This document shows, piece after piece, positions 1,055 to 10,193 of a DNA stretch of 11,617 nt. The translations under genes and the position numbers were made by a program. Source of the stretch: Clostridia bacterium (GTDB taxonomy: Bacteria > Bacillota > Clostridia > Oscillospirales > CAG-272). The notes below the pieces were generated by a model. That model was not told the origin of the DNA, made no database searches, and saw nothing but the letters and a program-made list of their open reading frames with translations. Where the stretch lies: contig JAFTIV010000034.1 of NCBI GenBank assembly GCA_017456685.1, forward strand, positions 1 through 11,617, given 5' to 3'. Numbering within the stretch: position 1 is the first letter of the stretch; every line of letters begins with the position of its first letter.

Positions 1055-1130
<76 letters not shown>

Positions 1131-1183: not shown

Positions 1184-1283
1184 CCAAGGGCTGAGCCCTT
1201 GGATTTCATCGCTCTGCGATTTCATCTGCGGAGCAGATTTCAACCGTCCTTTTAGACGGATTTTATTGCGAGGTGTGCCTTGC
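1184..1283 (+). repeat. Five-hairpin array with ATTTCAN linkers (copy A)
   Basis: Five small palindromic hairpins follow each other, separated by 7-8 nt linkers. H1 is CCAAGGGC/GCCCTTGG (1184-1202, loop TGA). H2 is CGC-TCT-GCG (1210-1218). H3 is CTGC-GGA-GCAG (1226-1236). H4 is CCGTC/GACGG (1244-1259, loop CTTTTA). H5 is GCGAGG/CCTTGC (1268-1283, one G-T pair). Linkers are ATTTCAT, ATTTCAT, ATTTCAA and ATTTTATT. The array lies between the tRNA terminator and the RBS of the radical SAM gene; H5 ends two bases before that RBS. The same ordered set exists in reverse orientation at 10001-10101. Whether it acts as RNA (leader) or DNA (dispersed repeat) is unknown. Confidence 0.85.
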
Positions 1284-1285
1284 AC

Positions 1286-6041: not shown

Positions 6042-7292
6042 ATGTTTTCGGATAGACTTTTACAAATTTCAGCGCAAGCAGAAAAAGAGCTTGCTCCTAT
6101 TTTCGCAAAAATAGATTCAATTTCATTTGATAACACCGAGAGGGTGCTCGATGCCTTCCGTGAGTATCGCGTAAGCGAGGCTATGTTCGCAGGAACTACA
6201 GGCTATGGCTATGACGATATGGGAAGAGACACCCTTGATAAAATATACGCGCGCGTAATGGGCGCGGAAAGCGCATTCGTTCGCCACAACATCGTAAACG
6301 GAACACAAGCGCTCACAATAGGACTTTTTGGTCTTCTAAGACCAAATGATATTCTTCTATCCGTTACAAATCAGCCATACGATACCCTTTGCGAGGTAAT
6401 CGGTATAAACGGCGCAAATGGTGACGGCTCACTTGCAGACTTCGGTGTAGAGTATCAGCAGGTTGACTTTACAAAGGACAAGAAAATAGACTTTGACGGA
6501 ATCGCAAAGAAATTAAGCGAGGGCGGAAAGAGAGTAAAGGTTGTATTCATTCAGCGCTCAAAGGGCTATCTTGACCGTCCAACCCTCACAGTTGAGCAAA
6601 TAGGCGAGATTTGCGCATTTGTAAAGGCAAGAAGCGACGCATATGTGGTTGTAGATAACTGCTATGGCGAATTTACCGAAACAAAAGAACCAACAATGGT
6701 TGGCGCAGATATGATAATGGGCTCACTTATCAAAAATCCAGGTGGTGGAATTGCCGAAAGCGGTGGCTACATTGCAGGAACAAAAAGAGCAGTTGAGCTT
6801 GCGTCCTATCGCTTAACAACAGTAGGCACGGGCGCTGAAGTTGGAGCAAGCCTTGGTCAAAACAGAAGCATGTTCAAGGGCTTTTTCCTTGCGCCTCATA
6901 TAGTTGCACAGGCGAAAAAGACCGCACACTTTGCCGCATATGTTCTTGAAAAGCTCGGCTTTGATGCATACCCTCGCTACGATGAGATGCGCTCGGACAT
7001 AATTCAAACAATCAAATTCGGCTACCCCGAGGGACTAATAAAATTCTGTCAAGGAATACAGAGCGCAAGCCCCGTTGACTCCTTCGTAACCCCAATGCCA
7101 TGGGCAATGCCAGGCTATGCAGACGAGGTAATAATGGCAGCAGGCGCCTTCACCCAAGGCTCCTCAATCGAAATCAGTGCAGACGGACCAATAAGAGAGC
7201 CTTATATAGCCTTTTTCCAAGGCGCGCTAACTTATGAGAGTGGGAAGATTGCGATTTTGACTGCCGTCCAAAAGCTCCTTGACGAGCAATAA
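6042..7292 (+). CDS. PLP-dependent methionine gamma-lyase-like / 'aluminium resistance' family protein
   Basis: A 416-residue protein of the PF06838 family (B. subtilis YnbB type), a fold-type I PLP enzyme. Visible features: GTTGYGYDDMGRD (51-63), typical of the family N-terminus; the cofactor-binding region RHNIVNGTQAL (81-91); VVVDNCYGEF (202-211) with Asp205, expected to contact the pyridine nitrogen; and MGSLIKNPGGGIAESGGYIAG (226-246), where Lys231 is the expected Schiff-base lysine. The length matches the family. Related Cys/Met-metabolism enzymes cleave C-S bonds, but the true substrate of this family is not settled. AAGGAGAT at 6029-6036 is the RBS and overlaps the upstream stop codon, indicating translational coupling with the Sel1 gene. 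No terminator with a T tract is visible after the gene. Confidence 0.93.
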   Translation: MFSDRLLQISAQAEKELAPIFAKIDSISFDNTERVLDAFREYRVSEAMFAGTTGYGYDDMGRDTLDKIYARVMGAESAFVRHNIVNGTQALTIGLFGLLRPNDILLSVTNQPYDTLCEVIGINGANGDGSLADFGVEYQQVDFTKDKKIDFDGIAKKLSEGGKRVKVVFIQRSKGYLDRPTLTVEQIGEICAFVKARSDAYVVVDNCYGEFTETKEPTMVGADMIMGSLIKNPGGGIAESGGYIAGTKRAVELASYRLTTVGTGAEVGASLGQNRSMFKGFFLAPHIVAQAKKTAHFAAYVLEKLGFDAYPRYDEMRSDIIQTIKFGYPEGLIKFCQGIQSASPVDSFVTPMPWAMPGYADEVIMAAGAFTQGSSIEISADGPIREPYIAFFQGALTYESGKIAILTAVQKLLDEQ

Positions 7293-7312
7293 GCTTCGTT
7301 CTTCTGCGTTGC
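7291..7312 (+). repeat. 22-bp dispersed module, first copy
   Basis: This stretch begins on the stop codon of the lyase gene and matches 9861-9882, just after rlmH, at 21 of 22 positions. The identical core is TCGTTCTTCTGCGTTGC (7296-7312 and 9866-9882). Both copies lie directly behind a coding region on the same strand. It may be a fragment of a longer dispersed repeat whose fuller form is at 9859-9959. Confidence 0.75.
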
Positions 7313-7324
7313 GGAATGACAAGC

Positions 7325-7541
7325 AAATGCGAAATGCGAAATGCGGAGTGCGGAATGGCGGGGACGCCCCCGCGGGCGAAAAGAATGAAAACAGTGCGTA
7401 AGCGCGTTTTCTACCTTTTTTCTTCACTTTTCATTCTTCTTTCTTCGTTCTTCATTCCCAAGTGGCAAGCAAATGCAAAATGTCTGTATGTAAATTATAT
7501 TGATTTATCATTTCGCACTTCGCATTCCGCATTTCGCATTT
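7325..7541. repeat. 217-bp nested inverted-repeat element
   Basis: The 33-bp outer arms 7325-7357 and 7509-7541 are inverted copies of each other at 30 of 33 positions; two of the three differences would be G-U pairs in RNA read from the + strand. The arms are built of heptamers of the type (A/G)AATGCG. Inside lies a second perfect 11-bp inverted pair, AAGAATGAAAA (7381-7391) with TTTTCATTCTT (7428-7438), and a GC-rich hairpin GCGGGG/CCCCGC (7358-7373). A direct repeat of 18/20 positions links 7317-7336 with 7463-7482 (core CAAGCAAATGC). No protein-coding sense is apparent. It resembles a MITE-like or structured repeat; no clear target duplication was seen. Confidence 0.8.
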
Positions 7542-7566
7542 TTGCGCAAACTCAACCATCAAAAAC

Positions 7567-7573
7567 AGGAGGG
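7567..7573 (+). promoter_or_regulatory. RBS that fixes the start of the second Sel1 gene
   Basis: AGGAGGG ends four bases before ATG 7578. The open frame extends upstream to 7500, but that part translates the inverted-repeat arm, so 7578 is preferred. Confidence 0.85.
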
Positions 7574-7577
7574 TAAT

Positions 7578-7946
7578 ATGAGCCAAGGTCAATTAGACGA
7601 AATTTACGAAAGGGCGCAGGCGCTTCTTTCGTCGGGCGATTACAGGAGCGCGTTTATCGAGCTTGAGAAAATAGCGCTCAAGGGACACATTCCCGCAATG
7701 AGTATGATGGGCTATCTTTACGAGGTAGGCAAAGGAACAGAGCCCGACATTTACAAGGCGGTTGAATGGTACAAAAAATCAGCCGAGGGTGGAAGCAACA
7801 CTGCGCAATACAATCTTGCGTCCTGCTACAAGAACGGAAAGGGCGTCAAGAAGGACCTATGCGAGGCGGTGAGATGGTTTACCGCATCAGCCGAGCAGGG
7901 AAACACGCGCGCTCAATACACCCTTGCCTATAGGCACCTAAACTGA
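7578..7946 (+). CDS. Sel1-repeat protein, N-terminal piece (ended by an in-frame TGA)
   Basis: This 122-residue piece has a helical N-terminus and two regular 36-residue Sel1 repeats (HIPAMSMMGYLYEVGKG... and SNTAQYNLASCYKNGKGV...). A third repeat (NTRAQYTLAYRHLN) is cut by TGA at 7944-7946. The same frame continues without any other break to 8798 and completes the third repeat at exactly 36 positions. The TGA sits at position 15, which is Gly in repeats 2 and 4 (KNG, FDG), so a GGA-to-TGA change is the simplest explanation. Without it the gene would encode 406 residues. It is therefore either a recently broken gene, a sequencing error or a read-through product. Sel1 repeats mediate protein-protein contacts; the specific role is unknown. 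Confidence 0.8.
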   Translation: MSQGQLDEIYERAQALLSSGDYRSAFIELEKIALKGHIPAMSMMGYLYEVGKGTEPDIYKAVEWYKKSAEGGSNTAQYNLASCYKNGKGVKKDLCEAVRWFTASAEQGNTRAQYTLAYRHLN

Positions 7947-7985
7947 GAGGGCACGCCTCAAAGCAACGAGGAATACATAAAATGG

Positions 7986-8798
7986 ATGACAAAATCAGCC
8001 ACAGGGGGAAATCTAAATGCACAATTCGCCCTTGGCTGTGACTATTTTGATGGCACAAACGGGGTCGAAAAAAGCATAGAAAAGGCAGAGATATTTTTGA
8101 AAAGACCCGCTCAAGGTGGCAACTCAAGGGCTCAGCTTTTGCTCGGTAGGATTTACAAAAAGGGCGGAGCCGTTCCAAGAGATGAAAAGAGAGCATTTGA
8201 GCTTTTCGAGCTCTGTGCCGAGCGCGAGCCCGAGGGAAGATATGAGCTTGGGCTTTGCTACTATAACTCCATAGGAGTTAAAAAATCATACTACACAGCT
8301 ATGCGCTACATTAAGGCTGCTGCCGATGCAGGCGTTGAAAAGGCGCAGAAATTTATCGAGGCGCAAAACCGCGTTGAAGAAGAAAAGGCGCGTCGCTCGG
8401 TGCTTCTTAAGTCTTATGTAAAGGCTATCACCTACAGAGAGGACGCAGAGATAGAGGACCTTATAAAGGCGTGTCAGCTTTGCGAGGAAACCTTAAACCC
8501 AAGCGATGCGTTTGCTGTAAGGGCGTTTGCTAAAATGCGCTACTGGCTCGCTCTTGCGTATTACAAAAGGGACACAGAGGACCCAAGCAATGCACGCCTT
8601 GCGCGCCAAAAAATGGAAAAATCAGCAGAGCTTGGCTATGACGAGGCGCAATTTCGCCTTGCCGAATGGTATTTTAAGGACTATGGCTTAAGCGAAGCAG
8701 ATACGCACGACTATGAGCCCGATGCAATCCGCCTGCTCAAGAGCGCAGCGGAGCAGGGTCACAAGGGTGCGAAGGCGGTATTAGACGCGCTACAATAG
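7986..8798 (+). CDS. Sel1-repeat protein, C-terminal piece of the same gene
   Basis: This is the same-frame continuation of 7578-7946; the frame is open from 7947 and the first ATG is 7986 (270 residues from there). It starts in the middle of the third Sel1 repeat and then has repeats at NLNAQFALGCDYFDGTNGV, NSRAQLLLGRIYKKGGAV, PEGRYELGLCYYNSIGVKK, a charged helical linker (EAQNRVEEEKARR), and repeats at AFAKMRYWLALAYY and YDEAQFRLAEWYFKDYG, ending in an A-A-E-Q-G-x-x-G-A-K segment. The nearest purine-rich sequence (GAGGAA, 7968-7973) is 12 bases from the ATG, too far for a good RBS, so independent translation is doubtful. The ORF remains free of further stops, which argues for a very recent lesion. 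The next gene, proX-like, follows after 26 bp and may be in the same operon. Confidence 0.75.
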   Translation: MTKSATGGNLNAQFALGCDYFDGTNGVEKSIEKAEIFLKRPAQGGNSRAQLLLGRIYKKGGAVPRDEKRAFELFELCAEREPEGRYELGLCYYNSIGVKKSYYTAMRYIKAAADAGVEKAQKFIEAQNRVEEEKARRSVLLKSYVKAITYREDAEIEDLIKACQLCEETLNPSDAFAVRAFAKMRYWLALAYYKRDTEDPSNARLARQKMEKSAELGYDEAQFRLAEWYFKDYGLSEADTHDYEPDAIRLLKSAAEQGHKGAKAVLDALQ

Positions 8799-9858: not shown

Positions 9859-9959
9859 GGAAGCGTCGTTCTTCTGCGTTGCTCCTCGTGGGTAATCTCG
9901 TCGTATGCCATATACGCCTTCGCCTACCCACTGCGGTGCGCCTTGAACAACTCGCTTCC
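9859..9959. repeat. 101-bp imperfect palindrome with 22-bp dispersed module
   Basis: Paired segments are nested symmetrically: GGAAGCG (9859-9865) with CGCTTCC (9953-9959), GTTC (9868-9871) with GAAC (9945-9948), GCG (9876) with CGC (9939), GTGGGTA (9888-9894) with TACCCAC (9925-9931), and CGTAT (9902-9906) with ATACG (9912-9916). Positions 9861-9882 repeat 7291-7312 (21/22). It has no T tract and so is not a normal terminator. It may be a dispersed palindromic repeat or a structured RNA. Confidence 0.75.
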
Positions 9960-9963
9960 ACAG

Positions 9964-9991
9964 CATCGAAATACTGCGTTGCTCCTCGATG
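9964..9991. repeat. Hairpin holding the second copy of a 15-bp direct repeat
   Basis: CATCGA (9964-9969) pairs with TCGATG (9986-9991). CTGCGTTGCTCCTCG at 9974-9988 is an exact copy of 9874-9888, exactly 100 bp upstream. The sequence directly after it, TGGCAAGCAAGTGCG (9990-10004), resembles 7317-7331 and 7463-7476, tying this interval to the element after the lyase gene. Confidence 0.7.
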
Positions 9992-10000
9992 GCAAGCAAG

Positions 10001-10101
10001 TGCGTAGCGATGCTACGCAACGAAATCCGTCTTGCGACGGTTGAAATCTGCTTTGCAGATGAAATCGCTTCGCGGTGAAATCCAAAAAGCCTACTTTTTG
10101 G
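10001..10101 (-). repeat. Five-hairpin array (copy B), inverted relative to copy A
   Basis: Read on the - strand the order is CCAAAAAG/CTTTTTGG (10082-10101), CGC-GAA-GCG (10066-10074), CTGC-AAA-GCAG (10048-10058), CCGTC/GACGG (10027-10040) and TGCGTAGC/GCTACGCA (10001-10019). Linkers are ATTTCAC, ATTTCAT, ATTTCAA and ATTTCGT. This is the same order, stem set and linker length as 1184-1283. Hairpins 2-4 keep identical stems with different loops; hairpins 1 and 5 keep their outer stem bases but differ inside on both arms, so pairing is preserved. Confidence 0.85.
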
Positions 10102-10110
10102 ATTGAGTTA

Positions 10111-10193
10111 GACGGATTTCATTTCAACGAGGCTCTGCCTCGATTTCAACCACGCATCGCGTGGATTTCAACCATACAGAGTATGGATTTCAT
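10111..10193 (+). repeat. Three-hairpin array with ATTTCAN linkers (+ polarity) before mnmG
   Basis: It begins with a half unit AGACGG-ATTTCA that looks like the 3' arm of a CCGTC/GACGG hairpin. There follow CGAGGC-TCT-GCCTCG (10128-10142), CCACGC-ATC-GCGTGG (10150-10164) and CCATAC-AGA-GTATGG (10172-10186), separated by ATTTCAA and closed by ATTTCAT. Each has a perfect 6-bp stem and a 3-nt loop, with different stem sequences. The polarity is opposite to 10001-10101, the switch lying at the CCAAAAAG hairpin. It ends 56 bp before the mnmG ATG. Confidence 0.83.

Follow-up and report, generated by a model that had tools for sequence, protein, structure and literature searches.

Gut-1 hairpin arrays as probable gene-less parts of a word-specific S23/IVP mobile-element family

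In excerpts of the 2010 report on Gut-1 (Weinberg et al., PMC2864571), this motif is filed as an RNA of unknown role and host, known only from human gut sequence, and is listed among the motifs most likely to be expressed as noncoding RNA. Tandem heptamers precede the S23p gene in the 23S intervening sequence of Coxiella, which is regarded as a selfish element, and no function is known for S23p proteins, according to the available parts of PMC4990558; further background is given in parts of PMC2858038 and PMC2408588. A link between Gut-1-type arrays and genes of the S23p family (PF05635) was not found in the literature that we searched, which left out preprints and most subscription journals.

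Here we analysed a stretch of 11,617 nt from a Clostridia bacterium (contig JAFTIV010000034.1 of assembly GCA_017456685.1; hereafter, the window), which carries two arrays of short hairpins separated by a common word. The most probable reading, in our view, is that Gut-1 makes up the cis portion, devoid of the gene, of a family of S23/IVP mobile elements that are specific for a word, and that the arrays of the window are such gene-less copies. The linkage and co-inheritance of word and protein are well supported; from these we infer recognition of the word by the S23/IVP protein and movement of the element.

Two Gut-1-type arrays and their copies

The Rfam model of Gut-1 (RF01706) matches the second array of the window at 10018-10086 with 52.4 bits against a gathering score of 50. 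The pattern, which the first-pass annotation had not recognised as a named element, thus belongs to a named family; no Rfam match at the gathering score is listed for the copy at 1184-1283. That annotation had described copy 1 as five palindromic units with near-constant linkers. Four of these are perfect hairpins, joined by ATTTCAT, ATTTCAT and ATTTCAA with the word (ATTTCAN) reading on the plus strand, and the fifth is an imperfect palindrome (Table 1). As it had also noted, the same units recur in inverse order at 10001-10101, and the best-matching 50 nt of the two copies are 88% complementary; copy 2 is longer than this, continuing to about 10193 with a second half in which the word is inverted. 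The stems CGC/GCG, CTGC/GCAG and CCGTC/GACGG are indeed identical in both copies, and another stem has changed on both arms with its pairing kept, from CCAAGGGC/GCCCTTGG to CCAAAAAG/CTTTTTGG. When five mononucleotide shuffles of the window were scanned with the detector that had found the arrays, no shared-word array appeared.

Table 1. Features of the window and their coordinates
Feature	Positions	Strand	Remarks
tRNA-Thr(GGT)	1055..1130	+	adjoins copy 1; terminator-like inverted repeat at 1129-1164
Copy 1, Gut-1-type left half	1184..1259	-	hairpins 1244-1259, 1226-1236, 1210-1218, 1184-1202; no right half
Imperfect palindrome at leading-hairpin place of copy 1	about 1266..1284	-	read from sequence
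Gene-less pair of hairpin-less tandem words	7325..7357 and inverted 7509..7541		AAATGCG-type, 91% complementary, ~150 nt between
Copy 2, leading hairpin	10001..10019	+	occupies place of terminator hairpin in relatives
Copy 2, left half	10018..10101	+	CAACGAAAT, then four hairpins; words TTGAAAT, ATGAAAT, GTGAAAT
Copy 2, distal partner A' GACGGATTTC	10111..10120	+	complementary to GAAATCCGTC at 10022-10031
Copy 2, right half	10121..10193	+	three hairpins, inverted word ATTTCAA/ATTTCAT

Both copies are intergenic and lie outside 23S rRNA helices. Copy 1 is oriented away from tRNA-Thr, opposite to the canonical position behind a tRNA, and copy 2 is located between rlmH and mnmG, so that neither occupies the canonical position. 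A PF05635 gene is absent beside both and present in the fuller copies of relatives.

Among the other features of the window, the pair of tandem words at 7325 and 7509 is possibly, by comparison with the layouts of loci L343 and L370, a second (tandem) layout of the same superfamily; it looks more like the STRR type discussed below than the Gut-1 arrays do. A repeat, CGAAATACTGCGTTGCT ... GTGCGCCTTG, occurs at 9862-9995 and 7280-7325, with several copies in the window and its own genome, and is also present in at least one other species of the genus (L164, G008). At 7500-8798, what by its look is a repeat-protein gene is apparently split by a stop near 7944 into ORFs of 7500-7946 and 7986-8798.

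The search for further copies in the source genome and its relatives that the first-pass annotation had proposed returned many; the two arrays are not the product of one duplication. The family comprises 23 places, the query itself included, and its core pattern has 22 exact matches, the two of the window among them, and none when read backwards. From the window's own assembly (1.43 Mb in 208 contigs, 63.7% complete), 43 candidates were scored and 41 Gut-1 matches at E<=1e-3 were obtained. At least one match was present in 66 of 96 relatives, and 57 of the 96 had one above the cut-off. A scan of named genomes, with a start pattern that favours copies with a complete left end, found the pattern in at least 119 stretches. 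Among the matches listed, nearly all were from uncultured Clostridia, Oscillospiraceae or Ruminococcaceae and most, by their record titles, were from animal-gut sources; those in Desulfococcus, Flavobacterium and Stakelama look like chance matches. Loci L046-L075 were top Rfam matches. When arrays with other words were scanned against Rfam, only tRNA matches and sub-threshold antisense matches on tRNA genes were obtained besides Gut-1.

Stem pairing and genomic position of the arrays

Pairing was analysed in 102 distinct copies fitting a start pattern. Of the 59 distinct sequences of the second hairpin, which is the segment between the second and third words, 40 pair at all four outer positions, compared with 84 of 2000 pairs of arms drawn across copies. 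The outer pairing of the third hairpin is complete in 32 of 49 (236 of 2000 across copies), and the first hairpin pairs at five positions in 50 of 53 (559 of 2000). The first stem is able to pair either locally or with a distal partner, and a distal partner of the copy's own first stem was found in 102 of 185 copies versus 7 of 186 cross-copy draws; the latter survey is no evidence for the local stem, because that stem was required to be perfect. The claim of the first-pass annotation that folded structure is involved therefore holds to the extent that this is a structured repeat family in which both arms of a stem change together. Covariation by itself is compatible both with selection on structure and with template-switch correction of palindromes.

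Quasi-palindromes undergo correction, and template switching during replication could be the source of much of the stem pairing without any selection on structure. The observation that loops differ between copies while stems match is in line with this account of the covariation, which we consider unlikely, with an appreciable share of probability nonetheless. It leaves unexplained why one word is common to all linkers and inverted in the right half, as well as the tRNA-end position and the linked gene. Correction of this kind is compatible with the mobile-element explanation that we favour.

Position was surveyed in 195 copies, again with a start pattern that favours complete left ends: in 66, a same-strand tRNA or tmRNA gene precedes the copy by no more than 80 nt, in none does one on the opposite strand do so, and the remaining 129 have no such RNA gene before them. 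CCA ends 65 of these 66 RNA genes and G begins 55 of the 66 elements behind them, the order in tRNA-end elements being G, A-run, hairpin and T-run, followed by the start CAACGAAAT. A perfect hairpin ends within 9 nt before this start in 86 of 122 copies, compared with 86 of 902 control positions. The terminator hairpin is part of the element: the CCA is followed by GAAA at 55 of the 66 tRNAs that have an array and at 3 of the 54 that have none. One terminator-hairpin sequence recurs behind two tmRNAs and one tRNA-Leu.

The mobile-element explanation is supported by orthologous sites with and without arrays. At the tRNA-Trp site, the sequences of two genomes (G010 and G023) are 95% identical over 620 nt and diverge exactly at CCA; this is the single base-level comparison of flanks, and G010, which has no array there, differs in the terminator too. 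At the tRNA-Thr and rlmH-mnmG sites, as read by eye, arrays are present in some species of the genus and absent from others. Arrays at one and the same site also differ in their word, which can be TGAAAT, TGATATAC, TATGTAATC, TATGGAATC or ATGATGTT.

Two side observations concern the flanks. A conserved segment of ~55 nt (GAGTTCGAATTCATACGCAAAACTGCC...) that ends in a terminator was seen behind arrays with different words in several families (L046, L047, L050, L051, L065, L066 and L086). Copies without a T-run often begin behind a hairpin with a TGTTCTTAAGGACA-like core (L056, L058, L059, L060, L210, L218, L227 and L334). A larger element, in which genes would separate the two halves of the array, was also considered; in 20 regions around copies, up to 19.7 kb long, only compact arrays were seen.

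The S23/IVP gene and its word

When all ORFs near arrays were clustered, the leading family occurred at 14 loci, with a median distance to the array start of 186 nt, and the second, an ABC transporter, at 10 loci with a median of 2.8 kb. A profile of the leading family found it in 21 of 313 loci. Its members are four-helix-bundle proteins, PF05635/TIGR02436, whose name (S23/IVP) derives from the intervening sequences of 23S rRNA. Four further loci (L321, L387, L064 and L067) gave no domain match.

An upstream word array, counted wherever one of eleven words occurs four times or more in the 330 nt before the gene, was present at 57 of 85 unselected PF05635 genes, or 58 of 88 with three dropped rows restored; the word list was compiled after the sequences had been read. 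A word array was present in 67 of all 96 PF05635 rows, compared with 1 of 1920 shuffles and with 4 of the 96 stretches taken downstream. Two rows (L176 and L070) were left out as the same genes as L339 and L372, and five (L224, L270, L401, L357 and L314) had been removed manually, either because they were fragments or for no good reason; on recounting, the word was found in L357, L224 and L270 and not in L401 or L314.

Word class tracks protein clade, not genome, and this result is well supported. The protein tree is built on 119 columns and leaves many forks open; along it, the word changes 15 times among the 67 rows, whereas shuffled words change 44.6 times on average and at least 40 times. 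For the 57 unselected rows, the shuffled mean is 41.4 and the minimum 35, against 15. The genome label changes 51 times on the tree. The words of S23/IVP clades include TGAAAT, GTGATGT, GTGAAGT and GTGATATT, and eight elements of the TGAAAT clade resemble one another from the terminator up to the gene's stop codon, past which they are unrelated. The gene stands behind the right half in the hairpin layout and between the halves in the tandem layout. An ORF of at least 60 aa starts between -20 and +150 nt from the PF05635 stop codon at 72 of 96 loci, overlapping by one base in 16; these ORFs, which differ from locus to locus, may be cargo.

The gene and the arrays also co-occur among genomes. 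PF05635 is present in 63 of the 96 relatives: 57 have both Gut-1 and PF05635, 9 Gut-1 only, 6 PF05635 only and 24 neither (p=4e-10), and outside the genus the corresponding numbers are 30, 8, 6 and 23 (p=2e-6), both p-values being optimistic because the genomes are related. Nine pattern matches were on viral contigs, including L312, which carries an array together with a PF05635 gene, and on two gut phage contigs a PF05635 gene follows a word array.

Several observations count against the mobile-element reading. Nine of the 66 Gut-1 genomes have no PF05635, both copies of the window lie outside the canonical tRNA position, and the placement of the gene differs between layouts. In addition, the three PF05635 genes of the window's own assembly, which is 64% complete, all carry words other than that of the window. 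The partner of the window arrays may be missing from the incomplete genome, may have been lost or may never have been there.

In relatives, the fuller form of the element begins where a tRNA or tmRNA gene ends in CCA, at its 3′ end, or behind another hairpin. It consists of the terminator hairpin, CAACGAAAT, a left half of hairpins with a word of 6-9 nt between them, a right half with the word inverted, and the gene for the S23/IVP protein. In the mechanism that we propose, the protein, probably a ring, would recognise its own word, exposed as a single strand between hairpins in RNA or in single-stranded DNA, and such recognition might regulate the element, move it, or both. Arrays without a gene would be served in trans or be decaying. 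The host would probably supply the catalytic step, with neither a reverse transcriptase nor a Y1 transposase providing it.

Part of this evidence would also suit regulatory leaders or extended terminators, in which the protein binds the words in its own mRNA leader, like a ring-shaped attenuation protein, and the arrays spread by ordinary recombination and horizontal transfer only. The words immediately precede the start codon. For the tandem layout, three or more tandem word units lie within 130 nt upstream at 25 of the 30 loci fetched, compared with 6 of 29 stretches located further upstream and with 19 of 90 shuffles. One solved relative found by sequence, 2rld, has five chains, and another S23/IVP relative is described as a homopentamer in the available parts of PMC4990558. 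Against this stand the many gene-less copies in one genome, the inverted word of the right half, which an RNA-binding leader does not need, and the junctions at tRNA ends, and we judge this explanation to be rather improbable.

A small RNA acting in trans, the 2010 classification of Gut-1, would account for the covarying stems and agrees with the original assignment in the excerpts of PMC2864571. With 41 matches in one assembly that is 64% complete, and with copies behind terminators in either orientation to their neighbours, we attach very little weight to it.

The junction at RNA 3′ ends and the resemblance of PF05635 to Avd, noted in excerpts of the literature, would fit a retroelement in which the S23/IVP protein and a reverse transcriptase acting in trans join the element to the 3′ ends of stable RNAs. 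RVT_1 was found in 23 of 96 genomes, with no association with Gut-1 (p=0.20) or PF05635 (p=0.32), and gave no match in the window's own assembly. Because 32 of the 43 PF05635 genomes that are at least 90% complete have no RVT_1, such a mechanism in trans is disfavoured, and we hold it to be highly unlikely.

The REP-like family that the first-pass annotation had left open, a repeat moved by a Y1 (RAYT) transposase, is suggested by intergenic palindromes with a fixed neighbouring word and is scarcely credible here, since Y1, present in 43 of 96 genomes, showed no association with Gut-1 (31 with both, 35 with Gut-1 only, 12 with Y1 only and 18 with neither; p=0.66) and, among four weaker Y1 loci inspected, GTAGGGG-type repeats accompany the two that are RAYT-like, neither of which has a Gut-1 array. 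At L164 and L165, RAYT-like genes have GTAGGGG-type palindromes inside the coding sequence itself.

Comparison with known systems

In a wider set, 57 of 299 Bacillota genomes have a PF05635 match, 49 of them above the cut-off. Five loci chosen by eye were scanned, and an LSU rRNA gene encloses four of them and an RNase P RNA gene the fifth. At L443 (genome G143), the PF05635 gene and its upstream words lie inside the RNase P RNA gene, where the RF00010 match spans 775 nt for a model of 367 positions. Several cyanobacterial and Bernardetia plasmids have the word upstream and its reverse complement downstream. For 70 loci that do not belong to the eleven-word set, two or more inverted words stand downstream in 35 and two or more direct ones in 15; draws across loci gave 306 of 2912.

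These loci raise a broader proposal, which we put forward tentatively and would rate at somewhat below even. Gut-1 arrays, the S23p-associated tandem heptamers of 23S intervening sequences and possibly STRR may be cis elements of one word-coded selfish superfamily, in which each S23/IVP protein would read its own word, presented bare or between hairpins in inverse halves. Their sites would be the ends or helices of stable RNAs (tRNA, tmRNA, 23S rRNA and RNase P RNA), sometimes with cargo behind. Should Gut-1 and S23p be two halves of a single element, both would gain a testable role. This would also provide a protein-word recognition code with many natural pairs, a repeat class that settles at tRNA 3′ ends, and a handle on the heptamer repeats that lie in tandem next to this gene in other phyla. 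A warning would follow as well, namely that a covarying Rfam family can be a mobile element.

With Gut-1 as defined in Rfam (RF01706), the window copy shares the hairpins and the TGAAAT spacers. Rfam models the left half alone and files it as an sRNA gene, whereas the copies described here are repeats that also have a terminator hairpin and a right half in inverted form, and that at some loci include a PF05635 gene. REP/RAYT systems likewise have intergenic palindromes with a fixed adjacent word, but there is no Y1 association here and the partner is a four-helix bundle.

On Nostoc plasmids, PF05635 genes have tandem heptamers next to them, and inverse words frequently follow the gene; these heptamers are candidate members of the cyanobacterial STRR families. 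Their heptamers have no hairpin spacers, whereas Gut-1 words are spaced by hairpins. Avd of diversity-generating retroelements belongs to a related fold family, according to the available parts of PMC10053308; unlike Avd, the PF05635 gene is found mostly in genomes that have no reverse transcriptase. The 23S rRNA intervening sequences with an S23p gene share the protein family and, in Coxiella, as far as the excerpts describe it, the tandem heptamers before the gene. Gut-1-type elements differ from them in lying outside rRNA, at tRNA or tmRNA 3′ ends or behind hairpins, and in spacing their words with hairpins.
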